In this document: piece after piece, positions 21,568-48,638 of the stretch
How the letters are laid out: the number at the start of each line of letters is the position of its first letter
How positions within the stretch are numbered: position 1 is the first letter of the stretch
Origin: a virus
Length of the DNA: 64,000 bases
Strand: one strand, 5' to 3'
IMG/VR virus record: IMGVR_UViG_3300020578_000006
Coordinates: 62,001-126,000 of that record
Notes under the pieces: generated by a model
Seen by the model: the letters and a program-made list of their open reading frames with translations, nothing else
The model's database searches: none
What the model was told of the DNA's origin: nothing
Translations under genes and position numbers: made by a program

Positions 21568-24249
21568 GTGAGTTTACAATCTGTTACACTAAACAACAAA
21601 ATACCGTTTACATTAGTCATTTCTAATGATTCGGAAAATATTTTGTATTGTACTAATATAAATGAACATCTTTTCAATGTTGCTATATTTGATACCAAAC
21701 ACAAACCGTTAATATTAGAATATAATGAAGAAAATAGCGAAAAATATGTCAATATTGATGTAAAAATTGGCAATAAACTCTATAAAAAGTCTATCTTTCG
21801 TGTTGTATTGACTGATAATTCTAAATTAGAATCAATCTTTAATCCCTCTTATGTAAAACCGGTAATTGTTAAGGAAAAACCAAAAATACAGATTGTAGAG
21901 GAAGTAGAAGAACCTATTAAAGAGGTAATTGTTCCTTCTACCCCAGTAATTGAACAAGAACCAATGAAATTATATCAACCTTTACAGAAGGGTAGTATAT
22001 ATGAGGTTGCTGTCAATACGACAGTCCCGATGACCTTAATTGAAAGCGGGGAAGCTGAGAATATTTTCTTTTGTAGTTCGTTTACCGATCAACTGTTTAA
22101 TATTGGCATATTTAAAACCCAGGATGCCGAACTTATTTGTGAATATTTTGAAAAAAATAGGGAAAAATTTGTATTTGTAGATCTTTTATTTGAAAATGGA
22201 GATTTATATACCAAGGTAAAATTTAAAATTATTGTAGTAGAAGATCAGGAGACTCCTATTTCCATGTTTAATTTAAAAACATTGGATCCAAATTCAAAAT
22301 CGTACGTGGAATTTACAGGTCCCAAGGAAAGACCGCCCCAGCTGGTAGAAGATATTAAAGTACCTGAACTGGTTATTACCGAAGATAAAGAACTTGTACA
22401 ACAAAAACAGGAGTATACCAAGGCTATTGAGAAGGCTCGTAATCTAGAATTACAACTAGAAGAACAAAATAAGATATTACTGGAAAAACAAAAAGAAATT
22501 CAGAAAAAAGCAGTTGTTGTAGAGGCCGCAGATGAGGTAGAAAAATTAATCTGGGAAAATATACAAACAAAACTTAATTCATTTAAGAAAGAGTTTGCTG
22601 ATGAATTTAAAAAAGACTCCAGAAAAAATTTAGATGAGTATGTTATTGAAAAACTAAAGAAAGATCTGGAGACCACCCATGAAATAGATACCAAACTTAG
22701 AGAAATAGTGGAACAAAATGAAAGCACGGCAAAAGTTAAAGACGGTATTAAGAAATATGTAGACAGGGCAGTGGAAGCTGCATTAAGAGAGGCGAAAAAA
22801 TATGCAGTTAACATGGGTGGGGGCGGTGGAGGCTCTGTAGCAGTACAATACGCCGAAGGCGGTGTAATGGATGGTCATCTCACAGTAAATGGGTTAACAG
22901 TAAAAGGCGAAGTAGAGTTTTGTGGGGATGTTTTACCGTGTGAAACTGATGTTCATAGCTTAGGATCACCAACCAAGAGATGGAAAGACTTATATGTAAG
23001 CGATAGTTCAATCTATCTAGGCAGTGTCACACTTTCTGCAGTAGGAAATACATTTGTAGTACCAGAAAATACACTTATTATTGGAGATACTATAAATGAT
23101 GGTGATTTAAATGTTTCCACTAGTATACTTTCAGCCGGGGTAGATCTTCTAGATATATTTGCACAGACTTCAGCAGGTGTTCAGTCATTAATTTGGGACC
23201 CAGTGCCCTACAATTTATCGATAACAAGTGGTAACACGGTATCGTTATTGTCCATTAAAAATGACATTCAACAATATACAGGGGATAATTTTCTTTCATT
23301 ATCTGGTGGTAGTATTACTGGAAGTTTAAATATATTTCAAGATTTAACGGTAAATGGTAATTTAACCGCCCTGGGTAATTCTTATTTTGTAGATACTATT
23401 TTTACTACAACGAGTGCGTTGTCTGTTATTAATGTCGGTAAGGGTCCAGCCTTATATGTTTATCAGGCAAAGGGCCCTTATGATATTGCAAGCTTTTTTG
23501 ACGGTGATGGTGTAGAAGTATTGCATGTTGGGAATGCAGAGCCTGATGGACGCGGTAGTATTGGTATTAATACCAGTTACCCCACAGCCGAGCTTACTGT
23601 AAATGGTGCAATAAGTTCTAATCAACTTATTACCGCTCCCGGTGGTAATAGTAATTTATGGAATAGTGTTTATAATTCAGTTACTCCAAACTCTGCGAAT
23701 TGGGATTCAGTTTACTCCAGTGTTAATACAACAAGCGCAGAGTGGGATTCGGTTTATAATTCATGGAATACGTTAAGTGGGATTTATGTCACTACTCATT
23801 ATCTTTCTACCAACAATGTATTGTTAAGCGCAGCTACAGTTATCGACGATATTAATGTTGGAGGTACCGGTTACTTTAATCATGTGGCAGCTGCCTCCAA
23901 GTCATTCTATATTCCACATCCTTCCAAGCAAGGTTTACACTTACAATATGGATCATTGGAGTCACCTTACCATGGGGTAAGATTAACCGGTAAAGCCACT
24001 ATTAAAACACAATGTGCAATTAAATTACCGGATTATATCAAAGATTTAGTACATAAATCCGATACAAATGTACAGTTGACCAATATAAACCATACAAAAC
24101 CTTTGTATGTGTCCGAAATTAATACAGAGGAAAACTACTTTATAGTGAAGAGAAACCATGGGTTATTCGATAAGAATAAAGAATTTAGCTTTTATTGGTC
24201 TTTTACCGCTATTAGAAAAGATATACCCGCTTTGCAAATAGAAATATAG
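21568..24249 (+). CDS. Large tail fibre protein with coiled coil and shared C-terminal domain
   Basis: An 893-residue protein from GTG 21568. The N-terminus holds two diverged copies of an 85-residue domain (about 1-85 and 145-230; compare IPFTLVISNDSENILYCTN with VPMTLIESGEAENIFFCSS). Residues 270-410 form a long charged coiled coil, followed by a glycine run (GGGGGG) and a fibre module, LGSPTKRWKDLYVSDSSIYLG. Two or three copies of the SxxWDSVYxxV motif lie near 705-730. The C-terminal 130 residues (KSFYIPHPSKQGLHLQYGSLESPYHGVRLTG, ending in FYWSFTAIRKDIP) recur at the end of the next gene. This suggests a trimeric proximal fibre or baseplate-attached connector. The N-terminal repeats could anchor it to the baseplate, which is inference. 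Confidence 0.75.
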   Translation: MSLQSVTLNNKIPFTLVISNDSENILYCTNINEHLFNVAIFDTKHKPLILEYNEENSEKYVNIDVKIGNKLYKKSIFRVVLTDNSKLESIFNPSYVKPVIVKEKPKIQIVEEVEEPIKEVIVPSTPVIEQEPMKLYQPLQKGSIYEVAVNTTVPMTLIESGEAENIFFCSSFTDQLFNIGIFKTQDAELICEYFEKNREKFVFVDLLFENGDLYTKVKFKIIVVEDQETPISMFNLKTLDPNSKSYVEFTGPKERPPQLVEDIKVPELVITEDKELVQQKQEYTKAIEKARNLELQLEEQNKILLEKQKEIQKKAVVVEAADEVEKLIWENIQTKLNSFKKEFADEFKKDSRKNLDEYVIEKLKKDLETTHEIDTKLREIVEQNESTAKVKDGIKKYVDRAVEAALREAKKYAVNMGGGGGGSVAVQYAEGGVMDGHLTVNGLTVKGEVEFCGDVLPCETDVHSLGSPTKRWKDLYVSDSSIYLGSVTLSAVGNTFVVPENTLIIGDTINDGDLNVSTSILSAGVDLLDIFAQTSAGVQSLIWDPVPYNLSITSGNTVSLLSIKNDIQQYTGDNFLSLSGGSITGSLNIFQDLTVNGNLTALGNSYFVDTIFTTTSALSVINVGKGPALYVYQAKGPYDIASFFDGDGVEVLHVGNAEPDGRGSIGINTSYPTAELTVNGAISSNQLITAPGGNSNLWNSVYNSVTPNSANWDSVYSSVNTTSAEWDSVYNSWNTLSGIYVTTHYLSTNNVLLSAATVIDDINVGGTGYFNHVAAASKSFYIPHPSKQGLHLQYGSLESPYHGVRLTGKATIKTQCAIKLPDYIKDLVHKSDTNVQLTNINHTKPLYVSEINTEENYFIVKRNHGLFDKNKEFSFYWSFTAIRKDIPALQIEI

Positions 24250-24290: not shown

Positions 24291-27200
24291 GTGGCTGACC
24301 GTAATGTATTAATATCTCCGGGTGAAGGTTATATATTTTTCGATAGGAGCAATACTGGCTCTTCGACAAAATATGCAGGGGTTTCTGCCGATCTTAGCGT
24401 ACAAATCCAATATAATGATCTTGGTGGGTTAGAGTTTAGTACACCTGCTACTAACAATTCAACAGTTTCTATAAGTGGTGGAAATATCGTAGCTAATAGA
24501 AATATTACCGGGTTTACCATTTTTGAGAATCACTTAAATACAAATAGTGATGACTGGGCATCAGTTTATTCTTCAGTTCAAACAAATTCATCTGATTGGA
24601 ATGGAGGCGGAAGCCTTTATACAGTAGTTACAGAAAATAGTGCAAACTGGAACAGCGTTTATACTTCTGTAAGTGAAACTAGTGCTGACTGGGATTCAAC
24701 TTACACATCGGTCTCCGAAACATCGGCTGACTGGGATAGTACATATACATCGGTTTCAGAGACAAGCGCTGATTGGGATTCAACGTATACATCGGTCTCC
24801 GAAACATCAGCTGACTGGGATAGTACATATACATCGGTATCTGAAACATCGGCTGATTGGGATAGTACTTACACTTCAGTTTCAGAGACGAGTGCTGACT
24901 GGGATTCAACTTATACCTCCGTTAGTGAAACATCAGCTGACTGGGACAGTACATATACTTCTGTTTCAGAAACATCGGCTGACTGGGATTCAACTTATAC
25001 CTCCGTTAGTGAAACCAGTGCTGATTGGGATATTACATATACTTCTGTAAGCGAAACATCAGCTGACTGGGATAGTACGTATACTTCTGTTTCAGAAACA
25101 TCGGCTGACTGGGATAGTACGTATACTTCTGTTTCAGAAACATCTGCTGATTGGGATAGTACCTATACATCGGTATCTGAAACATCAGCTGATTGGGATT
25201 CGACTTATACTTCCGTAAGCTTAAATAGCGCCGATTGGGATAGTACATATACTTCTGTTTCAGAAACATCAGCTGATTGGGATTCGACTTATACTTCCGT
25301 AAGCTTAAATAGCGCCGATTGGGATAGTACATATACTTCTGTTTCAGAAACATCTGCTGATTGGGATAGTACATATAGTTCAGTTAGCCTAGTAAGTGCC
25401 GATTGGGACAGTTCAATTTACGACATTTATGGTACAACACACCAAATAACCGTTGTAACAGCAGGTACAAATAACAGAGATAATAGCGTTACTTTAAGTT
25501 TCCCGACAAGTGTATTTTTCCCAGGTAGTGTTAGTATAGCAGGTAACCTAACAATCTCTGGATCTGCCGCACAAATAGATGTAGATCACTTAGTAGTTAA
25601 AGATAATATAATTTATTTTGCAGAAGATAACCCAGCAAATGTTTTAGATATCGGATGGGTTGGCGCATTTACAGAAATTGGCGATGATGCTGGGTACCAA
25701 CATACAGGTTTGATTAGAAGAGCAGGCCAAGGCCGCCCTGGTACATGGACATTATTCTCTGGGCTTACAACAGAACCTGCATCTGCTGCAAATATTAATT
25801 GGGATGATTATTATTTTACAATAGACACTCTAAGAGCTAACCTATCTGGTACAGTGTTAGTACCTGGTGGCGGGTCTTCATTTGACTGGGATAGTGTATA
25901 TGCTAATGTTCAAGCAAATTCAGCTGGTTGGAGCGGAGGAGGAAGCCTTTATACAGTAGTTACAGAAAATAGTGCAAACTGGAACAGCGTTTATACATCA
26001 GTAAGTGAGACTAGCGCTGACTGGGATTCAACTTACACATCGGTCTCCGAAACATCGGCTGACTGGGATAGTACCTATACATCGGTTTCACAAACATCTG
26101 CTGATTGGGATAGTACCTATACTTCTGTAAGTGAGACTTCAGCTGATTGGGATAGTACCTATACATCAGTAAGTGAAACATCAGCTGACTGGGATTCAAC
26201 TTATACTTCCGTTAGCGAGACCAGCGCCGATTGGGATAGCACATACACATCTGTAAGCGAAACATCGGCTGATTGGGATTCAACCTACACTTCTGTTAGT
26301 GAAACCAGTGCTGATTGGGATAGCACTTACACCTCAGTAAGTGAGACCAGTGCTGACTGGGATTCAACCTATACATCAGTAAGTGAGACCAGCGCCGATT
26401 GGGATTCGACTTATACTTCTGTAAGCTTAAATAGCGCCGATTGGGACAGTACATACACATCAGTAAGTGAGACCAGCGCCGATTGGGATTCGACTTATAC
26501 TTCTGTAAGCTTAAATAGCGCCGATTGGGACAGTACATACACATCAGTAAGTGAGACCAGCGCCGATTGGGATTCGACTTATACTTCTGTAAGCTTAAAT
26601 AGCGCCGATTGGGACAGTACATACACATCAGTAAGCGAAACATCAGCTGACTGGGATTCAACCTATACATCAGTTTCACAAACATCTGCCGATTGGGATA
26701 GTGTCTATACATCGATGTCACTTAATAGTAGTTATTGGCTCGATATATCTGAAGCTAGTACAGAATTCTTAAAGGTATCTGGTGGTACTATTATAGAGGT
26801 TGGTGGTGAAGGTGGCTCGTTAGTCATAACAAATGATTTGACTGTCGATCCAACTAATCATGTATTGTTTGTTGATAAGTCACTTCAAAGAGTAGGTATA
26901 CTAAATTCAACACCTGATCGCGCTCTACACGTTAATGGAGATATCGAAGGATCTATTGGTTACTTTACACATATTGCAGCCGGCACAAAGTCATTCTATA
27001 TCAAACACCCTATTGATAGCAACAAACATCTACAATACGGATCATTGGAGTCTCCTTATCACGGTATAAGACTGACTGGTGAAGCAGAAATTACTGGCTC
27101 TACTGCAAAAATCGTTCTACCTTCTTATGTCTATGCTTTAGTACATGATAGTAATCTCAATGTTCAATTGACGAACTTCAAACACAAAAAACAACTCTGG

Positions 27201-27350
27201 GTGGACGATATCGTAATAGATACTAATACAAAAGAAAGTTACTTTGTAGTTAAGACCTCTAAAGATCTGTTTAGCAATAAAGCTTATAAGTTCTTCTGGT
27301 CCTTCACTGCCATTCGAAAGGATATTCCACCCCTAGTAGTAGAGGTGTAA
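24291..27350 (+). CDS. Tail fibre protein with two arrays of a 14-residue repeat
   Basis: A 1019-residue protein starting at GTG. An N-terminal cap (about 1-120) resembles that of the fibre at 27981. Then come 18 exact-length units of YTSVSETSADWDST (about 124-375). A non-repeat domain follows (about 376-545) with VKDNIIYFAEDNPANVLDIGWVG and HTGLIRRAG, a module seen in phage fibres. A second array has 17 units plus a degenerate 18th (about 568-820). The C-terminal domain is shared with the previous gene (KSFYIKHP, LQYGSLESPYHGIRLTG, SFTAIRKDIPP). Tyr and Trp recur every 14 residues, suggesting a regular shaft of trimeric coiled-coil or beta-fold. Array length may tune fibre length. The reverse strand of the arrays is open in places by repetition, not by coding. 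Confidence 0.8.
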   Translation: MADRNVLISPGEGYIFFDRSNTGSSTKYAGVSADLSVQIQYNDLGGLEFSTPATNNSTVSISGGNIVANRNITGFTIFENHLNTNSDDWASVYSSVQTNSSDWNGGGSLYTVVTENSANWNSVYTSVSETSADWDSTYTSVSETSADWDSTYTSVSETSADWDSTYTSVSETSADWDSTYTSVSETSADWDSTYTSVSETSADWDSTYTSVSETSADWDSTYTSVSETSADWDSTYTSVSETSADWDITYTSVSETSADWDSTYTSVSETSADWDSTYTSVSETSADWDSTYTSVSETSADWDSTYTSVSLNSADWDSTYTSVSETSADWDSTYTSVSLNSADWDSTYTSVSETSADWDSTYSSVSLVSADWDSSIYDIYGTTHQITVVTAGTNNRDNSVTLSFPTSVFFPGSVSIAGNLTISGSAAQIDVDHLVVKDNIIYFAEDNPANVLDIGWVGAFTEIGDDAGYQHTGLIRRAGQGRPGTWTLFSGLTTEPASAANINWDDYYFTIDTLRANLSGTVLVPGGGSSFDWDSVYANVQANSAGWSGGGSLYTVVTENSANWNSVYTSVSETSADWDSTYTSVSETSADWDSTYTSVSQTSADWDSTYTSVSETSADWDSTYTSVSETSADWDSTYTSVSETSADWDSTYTSVSETSADWDSTYTSVSETSADWDSTYTSVSETSADWDSTYTSVSETSADWDSTYTSVSLNSADWDSTYTSVSETSADWDSTYTSVSLNSADWDSTYTSVSETSADWDSTYTSVSLNSADWDSTYTSVSETSADWDSTYTSVSQTSADWDSVYTSMSLNSSYWLDISEASTEFLKVSGGTIIEVGGEGGSLVITNDLTVDPTNHVLFVDKSLQRVGILNSTPDRALHVNGDIEGSIGYFTHIAAGTKSFYIKHPIDSNKHLQYGSLESPYHGIRLTGEAEITGSTAKIVLPSYVYALVHDSNLNVQLTNFKHKKQLWVDDIVIDTNTKESYFVVKTSKDLFSNKAYKFFWSFTAIRKDIPPLVVEV
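24660..25415 (+). repeat. Tandem array of 18 x 42 bp (14-residue repeat), array 1
   Basis: Eighteen 42-bp units encode Y-T-S-V-S-E/L-T/N-S-A-D-W-D-S-T. Most copies differ only by synonymous changes, for example in the S-E-T-S codons, so the protein repeat is conserved while the DNA has drifted. Units 14-17 alternate SETS and SLNS types. Confidence 0.9.
25992..26705 (+). repeat. Tandem array of 17 x 42 bp, array 2, with recent 84-bp duplications
   Basis: Seventeen 42-bp units of the same 14-residue repeat, followed by one degenerate unit. Positions 26373-26456, 26457-26540 and 26541-26624 are three identical or nearly identical 84-bp blocks, each a SETS unit plus a SLNS unit, showing recent expansion by dimers. 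Earlier units are diverged at synonymous sites. Confidence 0.9.
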
Positions 27351-27979
27351 TGAGTGCGGGCTTTAATCCAAGGCTTATTACTAGTGGGTTAGAATTTTGT
27401 ATAGACCCTACAAACCCAAAGTCATATATTTCTGGAAATATAGTAAAAGATTTATCTAGAAATAAAAAAAATTGTGAGTTAATAGGCGATTATCATCTAG
27501 ATACAGTAGACGGTGTTAGATGTGTTATAACAAAGTCTAATCAAAGCAGAGGTTCGGGCATAATACAACCAAACAGTATAAAACTACATACCATCTCAAT
27601 ATGGTGCAAAGCCTTGGATGGTCAAAACGGTATTAATCCAACATTTATTGATACTAGACCTTCTGTGGTTAACGGTTTTATATTTTCTGGTAATTTCGGC
27701 AGAGGGTGGGATAATACTTCTTCTTATTATAACGGTATTTTTGTAGGAGATACTAGAATTCTATCTTCAACTATATTGTTTGGAGTCAACGAATGGAAGA
27801 ATATTACGCTAATAAGAAAAAACCCTTGTGTTTGTACTACTTTAAGATTTTATTTTGATTCAAACAATAAAAATAGTAGATCTTTTGCTTCTTCTTTAAT
27901 TACCTGCTACAATCGCCCTCTTTCAGAAGATGAAGTGATTGATAATTTCTTAGCTTTTAAGGGAAGGTTTAATTTATAA
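27350..27979 (+). CDS. LamG/concanavalin A-like lectin-domain virion protein
   Basis: A 209-residue single-domain protein. TSGLEFCIDPTNPKSY (11-26), KDLSRNKKN (32-40), TISIWCK (about 80-86), GVNEWKNITLIRK and the C-terminal CYNRPLSEDEVIDNFLAFKGRF follow the LamG jelly-roll pattern found in phage adhesins. Such domains bind glycans or pack on fibres. It is joined without spacing to fibre genes on both sides (shared base at 27350; 1-bp gap to 27981), so it is probably part of the distal adhesin set. Confidence 0.7.
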   Translation: MSAGFNPRLITSGLEFCIDPTNPKSYISGNIVKDLSRNKKNCELIGDYHLDTVDGVRCVITKSNQSRGSGIIQPNSIKLHTISIWCKALDGQNGINPTFIDTRPSVVNGFIFSGNFGRGWDNTSSYYNGIFVGDTRILSSTILFGVNEWKNITLIRKNPCVCTTLRFYFDSNNKNSRSFASSLITCYNRPLSEDEVIDNFLAFKGRFNL

Positions 27980-27980
27980 T

Positions 27981-30900
27981 ATGGCAAACCCTACATTTAA
28001 CACATTAATAGCGCCTAATTCTGGTTTAATTTCTTTTAGTAATGATCCAACTGGTAGTTCTAATTTGCCTTCGCTTTCTAGTTCTGCACGTATTGTTTAT
28101 ACAGCAGGCGGTGGACTAACAATTACCAGTAAAGTCTCTTCAATGGAGAAATTTGCCGTTGAAGGTAGACTGGGTACTCTTTTTACTGTAACAGATGCTG
28201 TTTCCGGTGCTTTATTTCAACTTAGAGATGTTACTGGTTTTCCTATAGTAGAGTTTTTAGATAATGGTGACCTTGTAACCATAGGCAGTATAACCGCGGT
28301 TGAGGGTAATAGCCAGGAATGGAGCAGCGCATATACTACCGTAAAAGCAAATAGTGCTTCTTGGGAGGAATCTGCAGAGATAATACCCACTGTAACAAAT
28401 TATCTTTCCACTAACAATGTATTAATGTTATCTGCTACCATAATGGATTCATTAAGCGCAAGAGACTTGTTTTACATTAATCGCACTTTAATAAGAACCA
28501 ATAATCAAACTAACGTCTTCATTGGCAATAGTACTACAGGAAATGATAATGCCGAAGGCAATCATAATTTTGCATTTGGGTTAAGTGCAGGCAATGCATT
28601 GACCATCGGCGGTAGCAACAATTTCTTGGGGTACCAAGCTGGCCGTTGCAACTGCACAGGCAATGACAACAATTTCTTTGGGAGAGAAGCTGGCCGTTGC
28701 AACACCGCAGGCAATTTCAACAATTTCTTTGGGAGAGAAGCTGGCCTTTGCAACACCACAGGCAGTTACAACAATTTCTTGGGATTCCAAGCTGGCCGTT
28801 GCAACACCACAGGCACTCGCAACAATTTCTTGGGATACCAAGCTGGCCTTTGCAACACCACAGGCAATCGCAACAATTTCTTGGGATTTAATGCTGGCCG
28901 TAGCAACACCACAGGCACTTTCAACAATTTCATTGGATATGGAGCTGGTTTTTGCAACATCACAGGCCGTTACAACAATTTCTTGGGATACCAAGCTGGC
29001 CGTTGCAACACCACAGGCCGTTTCAACAATTTCTTTGGTAGACTTGCAGGATTCACTAACACCATTGGCTCCAACAATACCATCATTGGCAATAATGCTA
29101 ATGTGGCCACAAACAGCTTAAGTGGTGTTATAGTTTTGGGTACTGGGGCTATTGCCACTCAAACCAATCAAATCATACTTTCCAGTGCTGATATTTCCAT
29201 AAGAACCTTAAGAGGTACTGCTGCGGGACCCAACGTCTTCATTGGCAATAATACCACCGGAAATGATAATGCCACAGGCAATCATAATTTTGCATTTGGA
29301 TTGAGTGCAGGCAATGCATTAACGTCGGGGACCAGTAATGTATTTATTGGCAGTTGTGCAGGTAGAGTTAACACCACAGGCAATTTTAACAATTTCTTGG
29401 GAAATAATGCTGGCCGTTGCAACTGCACAGGCAGTTTCAACAATTTCTTGGGACCAAATGCTGGCTTTTGCAACACCACAGGCAGTGGCAACAATTTCTT
29501 GGGATTCCAGGCTGGCTATTGCAACTGCACAGGCAGTAGCAACAATTTCTTGGGATACAGAGCTGGATTTTTCAACACCACAGGCAGTTACAACAATTTC
29601 TTTGGACCAAATGCTGGCTTTTGCAACACCACAGGCAGTTGCAACAATTTCTTGGGAAATACTGCTGGCCGTAGCAACTGCACAGGCAGTAGCAACAATT
29701 TCTTGGGATATGGAGCTGGATTTTTCAACACCACAGGCAGTTACAACAATTTCTTTGGACCAAATGCTGGCCGTTGCAACTGCACAGGCAGTTTCAACAA
29801 TTTCTTGGGACCAAATGCTGGCTTTTGCAACACCACAGGCAGTGGCAACAATTTCTTGGGATTCCAGGCTGGCTATTGCAACTGCACAGGCAATGACAAC
29901 AATTTCTTAGGATTTAATGCTGGCCGTAACAACACCACAGGCAGTTACAACAATTTCTTGGGACGTAATGCTGGTCGTCGCAACACCACTGGGTGCGCTA
30001 ACCAAGTTTTAGGGAGCTTTGGACTTTATAACAACACCACTGGTTGTGGCAACATTGCTTTAGGACCGGTTGCTGGTTTCAATAATGAAACTGGTTGCTT
30101 CAATTTATTCTTAGGAGGAGCTACTGGTTTCTGTCATTTAAGTGGTAATAATAATATTTTTGTTGGTAATGCTGCAGGATTTAATGATAAAGTAGGTTTC
30201 AATAACACTATAATTGGGTTAAGTGCTGGCGTGGCCAGCGTGTCTGGTACAAACAACATTATAGTTGGCTCATTTGCCAATGTTAGCACTGGTACACTGT
30301 CTGGTGTTATAGTTTTGGGTACTGGTGCTGTTGCCACTCAATCTAATCAAATCATACTTTCCAGTGCTGATATTTCCATAAGAACTTTGAGAGGTACCAA
30401 TGCCGGTCCCAACGTCTTCATTGGCAATAGTACTACAGGAAATGATAATGCCACAGGCAATCATAATTTTGCATTTGGATTGAGTGCAGGCAATGCATTG
30501 ACCACCGGCGGTTATAACAATTTCTTAGGAAATAATGCTGGTCGTAACAACACCTCAGGCAGTTTCAACAATTTCATTGGGAGAGAAGCTGGCCGTTGCA
30601 ACTGCACAGGCAGTAACAACAATTTCTTGGGATTAAATGCTGGCCGTTGCAACACCACAGGCAGTCGCAACAATTTCTTGGGATACAATGCTGGCCGTTG
30701 CAACACCACAGGCTGTAGCAACAATTTCTTAGGATTTAATGCTGGCCGTAACAACACCATAGGCAGTTGCAACAATTTCTTGGGACAAGAGGCTGGCTAT
30801 GGCAACTGCACAGGCAGTAACAACAATTTCTTGGGATTAAATGCTGGCCTTTGCAACTGCACAGGCAATAGCAACAATTTCATTGGACCAAATGCTGGCC

Positions 30901-32177
30901 GTTTCAACTGCACAGGCAGTTTCAACAATTTCTTTGGATATAGTGCTGGCCGTTGCAACACCACAGGCGGTAACAACAATTTCTTGGGATATGGAGCTGG
31001 CCGTTTCAACTGCACAGGCGGTAACAACAATTTCTTTGGATTAGCTGCTGGTTATAACATAGGCAGGTATGGTGCAGCCAGCCGCAATGTATTCATAGGC
31101 CAAGAAGCTGGCAGAGGTGAATATGATTCTAGCTATACACCAACTAATGTTTTTGTTAACAATAACGTGGCCATTGGTTACCGGGCTGGATTCAAATTAA
31201 AAGCCCATACCTACAATACCAATTATCACTATGCCACCCAACACAACATATTCATTGGTGAAAAAGCCGGTTACAATAGCACCACCGATAATTCATATGG
31301 CGCCGCTATACACAATATATTTTTAGGAAAATTTTCTGGGTTTTACAACACCACAGGCAATAACAACAATTTCTTTGGGAGAGAAGCTGGCTTTTGCAAC
31401 ACCATAGGCAATCACAACAATTTCTTGGGATACCAAGCTGGCCGTTTTAACTGCACAGGCAGTCGCAACAATTTCTTTGGATTAAATGCTGGTCTTAGCA
31501 ACACCACAGGCAGTTACAACAATTTCTTGGGACAAGAGGCTGGCTTTAGCAACTGCACAGGCAATCACAACAATTTCTTGGGATTCCAGGCTGGCTTTAG
31601 CAACTGCACAGGTTGTAACAACAATTTCTTGGGTAGACTTGCAGGATGCACTAACACCATTGGCTCCAACAATACCATCATTGGCAATAATGCTAATGTG
31701 GCCACAAACAGCTTAAGTGGGGTAGTAGTATTCGGTACTGGTGCTGTTGCCACTCAATCTAATCAATTAGTAATCGGTTCTTTGTCTACCCCGTTAACCG
31801 GTAACAGTATATTATATGGTAACTTAACTGTAACAGATTACTTAAGTGCATCTAGGTATGCCGATAGTACTAATTGGTCTGGTAATAGAGAGCTAAAAAC
31901 AGTTAACTTTGATGCTGAACCATACCATCATTACCTTGTAGACACCACTTCTAGTGCAGTTATAGCAACATTACCTCTAAATCCGCAGATAGGCACAGTT
32001 ATACACTTCTCAGATAGGCTTTTAACGTTAAATTCTGGGTGGAACACCAATAATCTAATATTAAATAGAAATAGCATGATGATTCAAGGTTTGGCCGAAG
32101 ATTTAGTATGTGATAGGGCTGGAGTTACCTTCGCTCTCACGTATGTAGGCCATCCAATAGAGTGGAGAGTTGACTAA
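27981..32177 (+). CDS. Giant adhesin fibre with Cys-rich 17-residue beta-solenoid-like repeats
   Basis: A 1398-residue protein. The N-terminal cap (1-150) includes GTLFTVTDAVSGALFQLRDVTG and one WSSAYTTVKANSASW repeat. Three blocks of a 17-residue repeat, consensus NNFLGxxAGxCNTTGxx, follow with about 10, 19 and 18 units. Blocks 1-2 and 2-3 are joined by near-identical linkers (GVIVLGTGA, NQIILSSADISIRTLRGT, NVFIGN). The repeat resembles the YadA/Hep_Hag type of trimeric beta-solenoid seen in adhesins. Dozens of Cys occur at fixed positions (CNTTG or CNCTG), unusual for a phage fibre. The C-terminus (from LTVTDYLSASRYADSTNW to FALTYVGHPIEWRVD) is a common phage fibre end domain. Probable role: long host-binding fibre. 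Confidence 0.8.
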   Translation: MANPTFNTLIAPNSGLISFSNDPTGSSNLPSLSSSARIVYTAGGGLTITSKVSSMEKFAVEGRLGTLFTVTDAVSGALFQLRDVTGFPIVEFLDNGDLVTIGSITAVEGNSQEWSSAYTTVKANSASWEESAEIIPTVTNYLSTNNVLMLSATIMDSLSARDLFYINRTLIRTNNQTNVFIGNSTTGNDNAEGNHNFAFGLSAGNALTIGGSNNFLGYQAGRCNCTGNDNNFFGREAGRCNTAGNFNNFFGREAGLCNTTGSYNNFLGFQAGRCNTTGTRNNFLGYQAGLCNTTGNRNNFLGFNAGRSNTTGTFNNFIGYGAGFCNITGRYNNFLGYQAGRCNTTGRFNNFFGRLAGFTNTIGSNNTIIGNNANVATNSLSGVIVLGTGAIATQTNQIILSSADISIRTLRGTAAGPNVFIGNNTTGNDNATGNHNFAFGLSAGNALTSGTSNVFIGSCAGRVNTTGNFNNFLGNNAGRCNCTGSFNNFLGPNAGFCNTTGSGNNFLGFQAGYCNCTGSSNNFLGYRAGFFNTTGSYNNFFGPNAGFCNTTGSCNNFLGNTAGRSNCTGSSNNFLGYGAGFFNTTGSYNNFFGPNAGRCNCTGSFNNFLGPNAGFCNTTGSGNNFLGFQAGYCNCTGNDNNFLGFNAGRNNTTGSYNNFLGRNAGRRNTTGCANQVLGSFGLYNNTTGCGNIALGPVAGFNNETGCFNLFLGGATGFCHLSGNNNIFVGNAAGFNDKVGFNNTIIGLSAGVASVSGTNNIIVGSFANVSTGTLSGVIVLGTGAVATQSNQIILSSADISIRTLRGTNAGPNVFIGNSTTGNDNATGNHNFAFGLSAGNALTTGGYNNFLGNNAGRNNTSGSFNNFIGREAGRCNCTGSNNNFLGLNAGRCNTTGSRNNFLGYNAGRCNTTGCSNNFLGFNAGRNNTIGSCNNFLGQEAGYGNCTGSNNNFLGLNAGLCNCTGNSNNFIGPNAGRFNCTGSFNNFFGYSAGRCNTTGGNNNFLGYGAGRFNCTGGNNNFFGLAAGYNIGRYGAASRNVFIGQEAGRGEYDSSYTPTNVFVNNNVAIGYRAGFKLKAHTYNTNYHYATQHNIFIGEKAGYNSTTDNSYGAAIHNIFLGKFSGFYNTTGNNNNFFGREAGFCNTIGNHNNFLGYQAGRFNCTGSRNNFFGLNAGLSNTTGSYNNFLGQEAGFSNCTGNHNNFLGFQAGFSNCTGCNNNFLGRLAGCTNTIGSNNTIIGNNANVATNSLSGVVVFGTGAVATQSNQLVIGSLSTPLTGNSILYGNLTVTDYLSASRYADSTNWSGNRELKTVNFDAEPYHHYLVDTTSSAVIATLPLNPQIGTVIHFSDRLLTLNSGWNTNNLILNRNSMMIQGLAEDLVCDRAGVTFALTYVGHPIEWRVD
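28612..31712 (+). repeat. Three blocks of 51-bp repeats with duplicated linkers
   Basis: Blocks at about 28612-29110, 29331-30292 and 30510-31712 consist of 51-bp units encoding NNFLGxxAGxCNTTGxx. Within block 2, seven units are duplicated: the sequence starting at 29411 recurs at 29768, exactly 357 bp (7 x 51) later. The linkers at about 29113-29330 and 30297-30509 are nearly identical. Antisense frames stay open here because of the repeat composition. Confidence 0.85.
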
Positions 32178-33286
32178 TGAGTAATTTCTCTACATTGTTC
32201 TTTCCTGTATCAGTTACATTGACCAATTTTGAGTTTGATCAAAACTGGAATGATACATACAATTTAGTAAGATCGAGTAGCAGTAGTTGGAATAATGCAT
32301 ATACAAGTGTTAGTGCATTTAGTGGTACATCAATTACGGAAGGTATTACTGCTACCAATTTTACACAAACTACTAACTTTATACAGGTCTCTTCTAGAAA
32401 CCTTAATACCCCTGGTACCTATAATATTCCATTACCATCTAATTTTAGATTTTTAAAGATTCAAGCATTCGGCGGAGGCGGAGGCGGCGGGTCAGGTAGA
32501 AGATCATTAGGTAGTACTGCATCTATTGGAGGAGGTGGAGGAGGCGGAGGAGGTTATATTGATATCACTTACCCTATATCTATTCTTGGTAGTCTTAACG
32601 CAACAGTTGTAGTAGGGACTGGCGGTTCTGGTGCAACCGGAGTCTCTTCTAGTGCAAATGGTAGTGATGGTTCATCCGGAGGTTCCTCTTCTGTAACAGT
32701 TAATGCTGTTACCATTGCATTTGCTGCAGGTGGTAATGCAGGTAGAGGCGGAGGTACAAGTTCAGATTCACAAGCTGGAGGTGCCGGTGGTGGCAATACT
32801 ACAAATACTGCTGGTTTTCCTGGTACTGTAGGAGCTAGCTCAAATGGTATTGCAGGTTCTACTGGTTCATCCGGTGCCGATGATGCTTTTAATTCTGCTA
32901 TTGGAGCTGCAGGAGGGGCAGGAGGAGGTGGAGTCACTACAGGTCCTGGGTTTGCAACTAGAAGTTCAGGCGGAGCAGGTGGTATAGGAGGTTTTGCTAT
33001 AGCCGGAACTCATGTTTCTCGTGCCACAGGCGGTACAGGGTCAGGGGGAAATGCTAATAATGCTTCTGCAGTCTCGCAACCTTCCATGATGTTGTTAGGA
33101 GGTGGAGGTGGTGGTGGAGGAAGTGCATCTAATACTGCTATTAACGGGGGTAATGGGGGTACAGGTGCACAGCCTGGTGGAGGAGGTGGCGGTGGGGGAG
33201 CCTGTGGTACAGCATCAACTACTTTTTCAAGTGGTAACGGTGGTAACGGTGGTGATGGTTATGTTCGTTTATATTTCTTAAATTAA
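32177..33286 (+). CDS. Glycine-rich adhesin/tail fibre tip protein
   Basis: A 369-residue protein. Residues 15-50 hold two copies of the SxxWNxxYxxV motif of the other fibres. From about residue 95 it is dominated by glycine clusters: runs of 6-9 Gly separated by Ser/Ala/Asn segments, ending in NGGDGYVRLYFLN. Such polyglycine cores are known from T-even-like gp38 adhesins, where glycine helices pack into a sandwich presenting variable loops to the receptor. It overlaps the upstream fibre stop by one base and is the last gene of the rightward fibre operon, so it is a likely receptor-binding tip. A structural collagen-like role is an alternative. Confidence 0.7.
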   Translation: MSNFSTLFFPVSVTLTNFEFDQNWNDTYNLVRSSSSSWNNAYTSVSAFSGTSITEGITATNFTQTTNFIQVSSRNLNTPGTYNIPLPSNFRFLKIQAFGGGGGGGSGRRSLGSTASIGGGGGGGGGYIDITYPISILGSLNATVVVGTGGSGATGVSSSANGSDGSSGGSSSVTVNAVTIAFAAGGNAGRGGGTSSDSQAGGAGGGNTTNTAGFPGTVGASSNGIAGSTGSSGADDAFNSAIGAAGGAGGGGVTTGPGFATRSSGGAGGIGGFAIAGTHVSRATGGTGSGGNANNASAVSQPSMMLLGGGGGGGGSASNTAINGGNGGTGAQPGGGGGGGGACGTASTTFSSGNGGNGGDGYVRLYFLN

Positions 33287-45243: not shown

Positions 45244-48200
45244 GATTTTTGGGTTGTATTGGTTAAAGTATTACCTGGGAAATACGGTTGAATGTACTCT
45301 GCACTCTGGCTCGGTAGGGTTGTAACCCAGTTTAAAGAATTAAGTTTTGAGTATGCGGGTGTAATGTTTTTGATTGTATTAATTATTGCCACACCTAACT
45401 TAGATCTACTTTCAGGACTTAAAACATTATCATTGATATATATGTTGTATAATGGGCTCTTAGCCCCCGGTACGCTCTGTTTGAAATATCTCGAAACAAC
45501 GTCAAAATAATTTCGGCGACCACTGGGTATATCAAAAGTTAATGAATTAGGAATAAACTTTTCTTTATACAACATACCTATATCAAAATATCTTAAATCC
45601 GTAGAATGTAAATAAAGGTTCTGAATTTTAAAATCTTTAACAAAGTAACTAGTCTTTCTAGTTTTATTTTTATCTAAAAGATCACTTAAGAGAAGGCCGT
45701 TATAAAATGGTGTTGCACCTGCAAATATATTATTTGTTATTAAAGGGGTGAGATTAAATTTATTAGCAGGAAAAGTAGAGGTTGAATAAAGCTCTCCATC
45801 AAGATAACATTTCATATATCCTTCCGGAGCATTCATCACCAAGGAAAAATGATGTGGGCCATTATCTAAGTCAGATGCGTCCACAGTGGTTGAAGGTATA
45901 ACTATATCCTCATTATTGAATGGATTATACAATCTGGTTTTAAATGTGTAATTACCATTACCATGCCTATTAACTAGATAATTGTAATTAAATCTATGAT
46001 TAGTAGCATCTGCAAATTGATAATTGCCTTGTACATTAACTCTAGTAGTATTATTTAAAACTCCTTCAGGTGTTAATGTCATTAATAGTGCATTAGTTGT
46101 GTCTGAACCGCTAGCTGTAAGAAGAACTGATTTTATTAGATCACCATTTTCAAACGTTTCAATAAACGATACATCTTGTATTGCAAGTCTCGATGTAGTA
46201 AACTGTCTATCTGCAGTTAAAGAGACAGTAAAGAGAGCTTCTTGTGATGGAGCAAATTTTGCAATAGCATTTGCATCTCCTGCCCACAGGTAATTATCAC
46301 CGTCAATATTAAAGAAACTAAAAGCTCCGCGCGAACCGATCACTGTGGACAATCTGTTAGTCACTGTATCGTATGTCATAACTATTCCCGCACTAAGAAA
46401 ATACAGCCTATTAGATCTAACTATTCCCCTTGTACCATCTACTACGGCTACTCTACCGTCACTCAGTCGATGTACTTCTCTTGCTGTGTTTTTGTTACCT
46501 ATAACAACTTCTGCAGATACTGGTGATAATAAATTTGACGTTAAATCAATAGCACTTAAACTTCTGTCAGAATACAGAATGTACCCCCTTGCCTCATCAT
46601 TAGATGCGTGAATGATAGAGTTTACTGGGCTAAATAGGGCTGAAGTAGCATCAATTATAGTTTCCCGTAAATCAAACTCTACCACCCATTGAGAATTGGT
46701 AATCGCGTGAAACGAATTTAAGGGGTCACGTCTTAACACATATTGAATATTTCCGAACGCTCTTTGTGATGCATCGAAAATATCTATCAACTGACTATCC
46801 GTGTTGTACATGTTAAGGACTCCGCGATTATTAACAAAAATAAATGGCGTCACAGTGTTGTAATTGAAAAACCCAAACCCGTAATCGTTATAATTACCTA
46901 ACAGTTGATAACCTTTAGGTGATGTCCAATCTTCACTATAGCCCCAAAAAGACAAGGTAAATTTATTACCACCAAAATTAATATTTTTAACATCAAAAGA
47001 TGCTACATTTTCCCCATTAAATGAATAGATATTTTTACCGTCCAAATCTTTTTCTGGATCTAAATTAGCACCGTTCCAGGTAGAAAACGTATTAAAATTT
47101 TTAATTTGAAGAAATTTATTTAATGAATTAATGTTGTGTTCGATATCAACCTTTCCTATGTGAGAATAAGCATACAAGCACCCTGGTTCGAACGTCATAT
47201 TAGTCGGTACATCTACAATTTCGTAAGGTAAATTTAAGCACTCAAACGTAGTAATATATGTTACATTACCATCCGTTGCAGAAAGCGCTTGAAAAGGTGT
47301 AACGAGCTTTGGATTATAAAATCTATCAACCCAAACAGGTTTTATAAGTATGTTTTCTCCACCGGACAACCAGCTGCATAGCCATTGCCCGGTTTGCTCC
47401 CCACTTGAATCACCTTGGTTTGAAGACGACTTATAATTTGCTAATTTCTTAAAAATTTTATCACTTCTTAACGGGTGATCACCAGCAATAGCTCCAGCTT
47501 GAATCAATTTAGACGATTTTAAATTTAATCTTTTAAAAGGATACATGCTTTGTGGGGTATGAAACCATGTAGTTTTACCGGGTTTAAACTCATAGGGGGT
47601 AGAATAACTATCATATTGAAGATGAAGCTTTTGATAACCTTCTTCTTGCCTACGACCAGAAAAAATTGCATTGTAATTTCGGTATAAAGTGTCATTTTCG
47701 CTCAAAAAGACATTACCCCTTCCCTGGGCATGTTTTGTGTTGAGTTGATTCTTTAAAGTCAAAACATTAGTTTTTAGCGCGGTCCCAGCTAGATTATCAT
47801 ATTCACTGTGAATTAAGAAATTATTTTCAATATTGAAATAACTTTTTTCTTGATTTAATCTTAAATTATTTTGATTAAAAGATTGTTCATAACTGCCCCA
47901 TTCATTAGTAATTTCAACCGGTAAAGGCAATTCAACTGATTTTACTGAAAAAAATCTTTTTTCATTATCAAATTGCATTTCTGTAGCTCCAGATACTATT
48001 AATGTTAGTGAAGAAGTATCATACAAAGTGTAATAAGGTAGATTATTAATTCTTGTTTGAAGTGTCAAAAGATTAGTCTTGTCATCATAAGAGAAAAAAA
48101 AGTATTTTGTATTCTCTAGACCTCCAGAAAAATTATCTTCATTTAAAAACCTTAAAGAATAATTAAATGTATTATAGCAGAGATAATATAGTTTGTTTTT

Positions 48201-48638
48201 GTACAAATGGCCTACTGTTGTTTTGTATGGGTTTGTTAAGTCTATTTCAAAAAAACATTCATTGTCTAATTTAGTAATGTCTTGCTCAAAAAAACCTTGT
48301 GTCATTTGAATGGGTATAGTGGTTGATGGAATGGATGGATCAATTACTGCTTTTAAAAACTTACCCTCGTTATTTCTTATAGCACAAAATAAAGTTTTTT
48401 CTCTATTATCGGGTGTTGTAAAATCTGTTATTTCTGAAAGTTTTAAAGACTTTGTAAGATGTAGATAACTGTAATTATTGTTTTGAAAATCTAATGTTTC
48501 TTTTAAAATAGGTGAAAAGAACGTTGTCAGATTACCGTCTATACCAATTCGATTATTAAGAAAATCTACTTGATTATCATATAGATATGAAGCGCTTAGC
48601 GGTCTAAAATTATCATTGGTTATAAAACTTGTTAGCAT
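45240..48638 (-). CDS. Giant virion protein with LamG-like domains
   Basis: A 1132-residue protein. Around 540-640, GENVASFDVKNINFGGNKFTLSFWGYSEDW begins a LamG/concanavalin-like domain, and a second lies near 940-1060 (DLDNGPHHFSLVMNAPEGYMKCYLDGELYS). Propeller-like strands (YILYSDRSLSAIDL, VHRLSDGRVAVVDGTRGIVRSN) lie between them. The N-terminal 250 residues are beta-rich and unrecognised. The C-terminus is helical, with SRSKLGVAIINTIKNITPAYSKLNSLNW. The gene begins with a GATAAATA octamer just upstream. Probably an adhesive baseplate or whisker component. Confidence 0.6.
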   Translation of the reverse strand: MLTSFITNDNFRPLSASYLYDNQVDFLNNRIGIDGNLTTFFSPILKETLDFQNNNYSYLHLTKSLKLSEITDFTTPDNREKTLFCAIRNNEGKFLKAVIDPSIPSTTIPIQMTQGFFEQDITKLDNECFFEIDLTNPYKTTVGHLYKNKLYYLCYNTFNYSLRFLNEDNFSGGLENTKYFFFSYDDKTNLLTLQTRINNLPYYTLYDTSSLTLIVSGATEMQFDNEKRFFSVKSVELPLPVEITNEWGSYEQSFNQNNLRLNQEKSYFNIENNFLIHSEYDNLAGTALKTNVLTLKNQLNTKHAQGRGNVFLSENDTLYRNYNAIFSGRRQEEGYQKLHLQYDSYSTPYEFKPGKTTWFHTPQSMYPFKRLNLKSSKLIQAGAIAGDHPLRSDKIFKKLANYKSSSNQGDSSGEQTGQWLCSWLSGGENILIKPVWVDRFYNPKLVTPFQALSATDGNVTYITTFECLNLPYEIVDVPTNMTFEPGCLYAYSHIGKVDIEHNINSLNKFLQIKNFNTFSTWNGANLDPEKDLDGKNIYSFNGENVASFDVKNINFGGNKFTLSFWGYSEDWTSPKGYQLLGNYNDYGFGFFNYNTVTPFIFVNNRGVLNMYNTDSQLIDIFDASQRAFGNIQYVLRRDPLNSFHAITNSQWVVEFDLRETIIDATSALFSPVNSIIHASNDEARGYILYSDRSLSAIDLTSNLLSPVSAEVVIGNKNTAREVHRLSDGRVAVVDGTRGIVRSNRLYFLSAGIVMTYDTVTNRLSTVIGSRGAFSFFNIDGDNYLWAGDANAIAKFAPSQEALFTVSLTADRQFTTSRLAIQDVSFIETFENGDLIKSVLLTASGSDTTNALLMTLTPEGVLNNTTRVNVQGNYQFADATNHRFNYNYLVNRHGNGNYTFKTRLYNPFNNEDIVIPSTTVDASDLDNGPHHFSLVMNAPEGYMKCYLDGELYSTSTFPANKFNLTPLITNNIFAGATPFYNGLLLSDLLDKNKTRKTSYFVKDFKIQNLYLHSTDLRYFDIGMLYKEKFIPNSLTFDIPSGRRNYFDVVSRYFKQSVPGAKSPLYNIYINDNVLSPESRSKLGVAIINTIKNITPAYSKLNSLNWVTTLPSQSAEYIQPYFPGNTLTNTTQKS

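Follow-up and report, generated by a model that had tools for sequence, protein, structure and literature searches.

Cysteine placement in the 17-residue repeats of a putative phage tail-fibre shaft and of related viral and cellular arrays

What might 45 cysteines do in a candidate phage fibre built from a short repeat? The question is raised by a 1398-residue ORF with an ATG start in the ORF list of a 64-kb window (the whole stretch of DNA analysed, bases 62001-126000 of a 229,717-bp virus record). A sequence-only reading of this ORF had described 17-residue units with Cys at one or two fixed positions. It proposed that, if the units stack as a beta-solenoid, the cysteines would line up in columns and allow disulfide ladders, metal binding or lipidation.

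The repeat ORF and its genomic setting

The strict pattern NNFLGxxAGxxNTTGxx finds 45 units of 17 residues in the ORF. A looser G..AG anchor gives 50, two of which ('RTLRG') are not units. The earlier count of about 47 is a fair one. The units occupy residues 196-365, 436-673, 691-707, 725-758, 829-1015 and 1112-1230, with linkers between them (Table 1). Part of the N-terminal region, residues 85-169, resembles part of the ORF at 21568-24249.

Table 1. Features of the repeat ORF and of two neighbouring genes (window positions)
Feature	Positions	Strand	Match or basis
Putative tail-fibre shaft ORF, 45 Cys	27981..32177	+	PHROG 23837 (E 3e-77), 6002, 4636
N-terminal non-array region, residues 1-195	27981..28565	+	
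Array block 1, residues 196-365, 10 units, Cys11 in 7	28566..29075	+	
Linker with motif GVIVLGTGAIATQTNQIILSS, YadA-type head repeat likeness by eye	29076..29285	+	sequence
Array block 2, residues 436-673, 14 units, Cys11 in 7, Cys13 in 5	29286..29999	+	
Degenerate units, residues 674-758	30000..30254	+	
Second linker, residues 759-828, near copy of first linker	30255..30464	+	sequence
Array block 3, residues 829-1015, 11 units, Cys11 in 5, Cys13 in 5	30465..31025	+	
Insertion-bearing units, residues 1016-1111	31026..31313	+	
Array block 4, residues 1112-1230, 7 units, Cys11 in 1, Cys13 in 3	31314..31670	+	
C-terminal region, residues 1231-1398, not S74	31671..32174	+	weak PHROG matches of unknown function
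Neighbouring fibre ORF, 14-residue TSVSETSADWDSTY repeats	24291..27350	+	phrog_24159 tail fiber
Glycine-rich tail protein directly downstream of the shaft ORF	32177..33286	+	Pfam Gly_rich_2 PF21722 above cut-off; phrog_356 minor tail protein

Over its repeats the ORF has matches in PHROG families of virion structural proteins and tail spikes (23837, E 3e-77; 6002, E 2e-57; 4636, E 2e-45), and it lies in a phage structural gene region, among fibre-type genes at 24291-27350, 27350-27979 and 32177-33286. Genes for a major head protein of T4 type (phrog_138) and for a baseplate wedge protein lie on the opposite strand. With these matches and neighbours, the natural reading of the ORF is the long tail-fibre shaft of a T4-like jumbo phage, and the fibre identity proposed earlier is thus upheld. 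The three PHROG families, in which this viral 17-residue repeat belongs, have no described mechanism, and the Cys pattern is not in their description.

The number of units varies. Near-identical viral contigs differ from the window across 28566-29999 by whole repeat units: units 6-8 are missing in L004, which has a chimeric 5/9 unit, units 2-8 are missing in L005, and L007 lacks units 4-6, with a chimeric 3/7 unit, as well as everything that lies between units 14 and 21, which are identical. Recombination and assembly collapse would look the same in these three contigs. The neighbouring fibre gene with 14-residue repeats varies in length too, encoding 1019 aa in the window and 991 aa in L007, a difference of two units.

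Cysteine columns and the predicted solenoid

Cys makes up 3.22% of the shaft ORF and 1.10% of the 44 other ORFs of the window (P of at least 45 Cys = 5e-10). Three of the 45 Cys lie outside the strict units; the other 42 are distributed over columns 11 (20), 13 (14), 16 (4), 17 (2), 7 (1) and 10 (1). Against the background of the 44 other ORFs, Cys11 in 20 of 45 units has P = 2e-27 and Cys13 in 14 of 45 has P = 5e-17, values that assume independent units and are to be read with the units' relation by duplication in mind. The recurrence of Cys at fixed columns, as described in the sequence-only reading, is supported. Runs of Cys11 reach five consecutive rungs. Within blocks, however, adjacent Cys11 pairs are at chance level (11 vs 9.0 expected, P 0.16), as are adjacent Cys13 pairs (3 vs 4.1). 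The emphasis on column 13 is unusual and peculiar to the lineage of this ORF, since Cys13 occurs in only about 2% of Cys-rich units across the family.

Two of the proposed uses of the cysteines are not supported by these columns or by the N-terminus. A CxC site for metal, with Cys at columns 11 and 13 of one unit, was rejected because the two co-occur at chance (7 vs 6.2 expected). Together with the rarity of Cys13 in the family and only two His in the units, this argues against a conserved metal site. The N-terminus (MANPTFNTLIAPNSG...) shows neither a signal peptide nor a lipobox, which makes lipidation of the bacterial lipoprotein type implausible.

The beta-solenoid itself is borne out by structure prediction. 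The overall pLDDT of an AlphaFold2 (AF2) monomer model of residues 172-407, made from a 38-sequence alignment, is 76.5, and the central units score about 76-93; positions 2-4 and 14-16 of the unit are predicted as strands. VIA-align matched this model to beta-helices with Z of 11.7-15.3; these matches are generic and hence indicate a solenoid and nothing more specific. A Foldseek search of the PDB gave nothing with E below 0.38. The PDB matches listed are beta-helices other than YadA, whose absence from the list carries no weight. In a PDB sequence search the shaft ORF had no match and the repeat profile no significant match. The model of residues 1129-1398 (pLDDT 49) was not used. The shaft is therefore predicted to be a beta-solenoid of 17-residue rungs, and it is probably trimeric. 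Unit columns 1, 3-5, 8, 9 and 12-15 are conserved. Columns 6, 7, 10, 11, 16 and 17 are variable and probably exposed.

The shaft resembles the heads of YadA-type trimeric adhesins in having short repeats, predicted to stack as a solenoid, with NxxxG...AG-like motifs. The shaft ORF had no Pfam match, YadA-type Pfam models had none in the aligned arrays, and a BFVD match annotated as a YadA-like head was weak (E 1.0). The structural matches in BFVD include viral adhesin-like proteins, some of them from giant viruses (Bodo saltans virus and a marseillevirus), and this suggests that the 17-residue repeat may also be present there.

Cysteine in viral and cellular arrays

Arrays of the repeat were collected with search patterns that did not depend on Cys. 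Scanning IMG/VR yielded two non-redundant viral sets of 94 and 58 arrays (152 in total); the window and three phage records belong to the first. In GTDB genomes 53 cellular arrays were found. Cys per unit was 0.78 and 0.87 in the two viral sets, which are not fully independent (up to 15% shared units were allowed), and 0.039 in the cellular arrays. The viral arrays are bimodal: 116 of 152 have at least 0.3 Cys per unit, and 35 have less than 0.1. For this repeat family the earlier remark that cysteines are seldom numerous in phage fibres is wrong. Among arrays of at least 10 units, 90 of 97 viral and 1 of 13 cellular arrays had at least 0.1 Cys per unit (Fisher p 2e-10). That viral arrays of this length nearly always carry Cys and cellular homologues nearly never do is a new result, and in the literature library searched no paper describing Cys-rich arrays of viruses was found. 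At the six variable columns Cys accounts for 14.4% of residues in the 116 Cys-rich viral arrays and 0.1% in cellular arrays; the 0.1% in Cys-free viral arrays follows from how that set was defined. About a quarter of the viral arrays are Cys-free, mostly short ones. Genome-wide richness in Cys was rejected as the cause, because other ORFs of the same contigs showed no clear difference (1.02 vs 0.76%, p 0.09).

Photosystem reaction-centre genes were found in five of about 11-12 tested records with Cys-rich arrays, and several carriers are therefore cyanophages. A T4-type head protein, considered as a marker to tell records with Cys-rich arrays from those with Cys-free ones, was found in 5 of 19 of the former and 2 of 14 of the latter, most of these records being fragments. 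Peptidase_S74 matches, known from fibres of T4-like cyanophages, occur in 15 of 19 records with Cys-rich arrays. The window differs on both counts: its 229,717-bp genome has no reaction-centre gene match, and the C-terminal S74 domain, an intramolecular chaperone, was looked for in the shaft ORF and is absent, the only S74 match of the genome lying at genome position 48176-48358. Each of the five records that carry photosystem genes has a glutaredoxin; the window's genome has none. Thioredoxin had no match in seven records. A search for the sulfhydryl oxidase PF04777 found nothing and was uninformative, since no control genome matched either.

Several records carry more than one array gene. 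In a 236-kb T4-like cyanophage record with photosystem genes (L321; G004:166000-184000), Cys-rich arrays occur in several tandem fibre genes, at least two of which end in chaperone-like domains, and the record has four S74 matches. The giant array genes of three contigs of 44-47 kb (L119, L121, L036) form closely similar sets, and each of these contigs has three S74 matches above cut-off. A stop-codon or recoding origin of neighbouring array ORFs was rejected, because for most pairs a complete C-terminal domain closes the first frame before a new gene starts.

Cys placement follows a rule. When columns were permuted within arrays, the pairs 6-7, 16-17, 10-11 and 7-11 of one unit and 11-11 of neighbouring units were depleted in both viral sets, and column 7 or 16 followed by column 11 of the next unit was enriched. 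Across the 116 Cys-rich viral arrays, Cys pairs in the same dipeptide occur at 0.28-0.59 times expectation, and Cys11-Cys11 pairs in adjacent rungs at 0.85 times (129 vs 152.6, p 0.008). The same-unit depletion persists once similar units are removed: the 16-17 pair then occurs twice against 16.0 expected (p 6e-6), and Cys per unit is under-dispersed (variance 0.602 vs 0.677 expected). The pattern of pair z values correlates between sets at 0.53 for Cys and at 0.01-0.11 for S, N, Y, R and F, residues for which neighbour avoidance is absent. The Cys7 to next-unit Cys11 pair (120 vs 88 expected, 1.36 times; 3.7 sigma in set 1 and 1.4 in set 2) could be a real cross-rung pair; Cys16 to next-unit Cys11 stands at 1.25 times.

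At each column the frequency of Cys codons among NNY codons was compared with a prediction from the other NNY codons, a null that ignores amino-acid preferences and serves as a guide only. The ratios were 1.05, 0.96 and 1.09 at columns 6, 7 and 16, 1.9 (1.6-2.3) at column 11, where Cys is the commonest residue, 1.5 at column 17 and 0.25 at column 10. Most Cys can therefore be explained if the purging found in cellular arrays is absent, together with a preference at column 11.

Possible roles of the thiols

On balance we lean slightly towards a T4-like jumbo phage tail-fibre shaft whose cysteines are dispersed single thiols, tolerated in a reducing cytoplasm, with close pairs selected against. 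The Cys would lie mainly on variable, probably exposed columns, about one per rung and with no stacked ladder. From established knowledge, viral fibres would reach their fold in the host cytoplasm, which is reducing, and be released by lysis, and this is the likely cause of the tolerance of Cys at exposed columns. Exported bacterial homologues would purge Cys there, and viral fibres may keep it. Local pairs within the array may be selected against because they could mispair. Several observations count against this account. Columns 11, 17 and 10 deviate from codon expectation more than tolerance alone would predict, the window's Cys are concentrated in two columns with Cys11 in long runs, Cys7 and next-unit Cys11 are enriched, and the Cys-free quarter of viral arrays does not follow from it. 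Oxidation in surface water would also be expected of exposed free thiols.

A stacked disulfide ladder along column 11, or 11 and 13, would fit the 20 Cys11 of the window and their runs, but it is very improbable. Stacked neighbouring Cys are not above chance in the window or in the family, where adjacent Cys11 and the closest in-chain pairs are in fact depleted, and on these pair statistics the ladder of the sequence-only reading was rejected. Directly stacked residues of neighbouring parallel strands are also only rarely disulfide-bonded. Sparse staples, in which some Cys pair between rungs or between trimer chains after lysis and stiffen the fibre, are less improbable than a ladder, though still unlikely. 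The two enriched next-unit pairs agree with staples, but among 1913 neighbouring unit pairs the first exceeds expectation by only about 30, which leaves most Cys unexplained; the depletion of the closest in-chain pairs and the lack of a thioredoxin match in the seven records also speak against them. There is a phage precedent: in Agrobacterium phage Milano, tail components are disulfide-crosslinked and the structural proteins contain 2.1% Cys (PMC10811340), and the shaft ORF has 3.2%. In the sheath, baseplate and fibres of Milano the Cys form defined bonds, and the disulfides lock the tail (PMC10811340). Tail proteins are enriched in Cys in both phages; defined bonds are shown for Milano, whereas in the shaft they would be hypothetical.

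Functional surface thiols, taking part in host attachment or holding a metal or other ligand on the fibre surface, seem doubtful, somewhat more so than staples. The excess of Cys at column 11 and its spread of about one per rung would suit such a role, but the Cys are scattered over six columns and form no conserved cluster, CxC is lineage-specific and no commoner than chance, and His is scarce. We regard as equally doubtful the broader proposal that solenoid fibres rich in Cys are a device widespread among viruses, cyanophages included, whose regularly spaced surface thiols act after lysis. If it were true, the thiols might, for instance, staple the trimer depending on redox state or undergo thiol exchange with the host surface.

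For the family as a whole, the contrast between viral and cellular arrays and the avoidance of neighbouring Cys are of more interest than the ladder question. The same repeat differs about 20-fold in Cys per unit between viral fibres and bacterial surface proteins, and in the viral fibres the placement of Cys obeys a rule. Two testable questions arise: whether the exposed thiols on the fibres of environmental phages are free, oxidised or used, and whether the site at which the protein folds accounts for the difference in Cys between viruses and cells.
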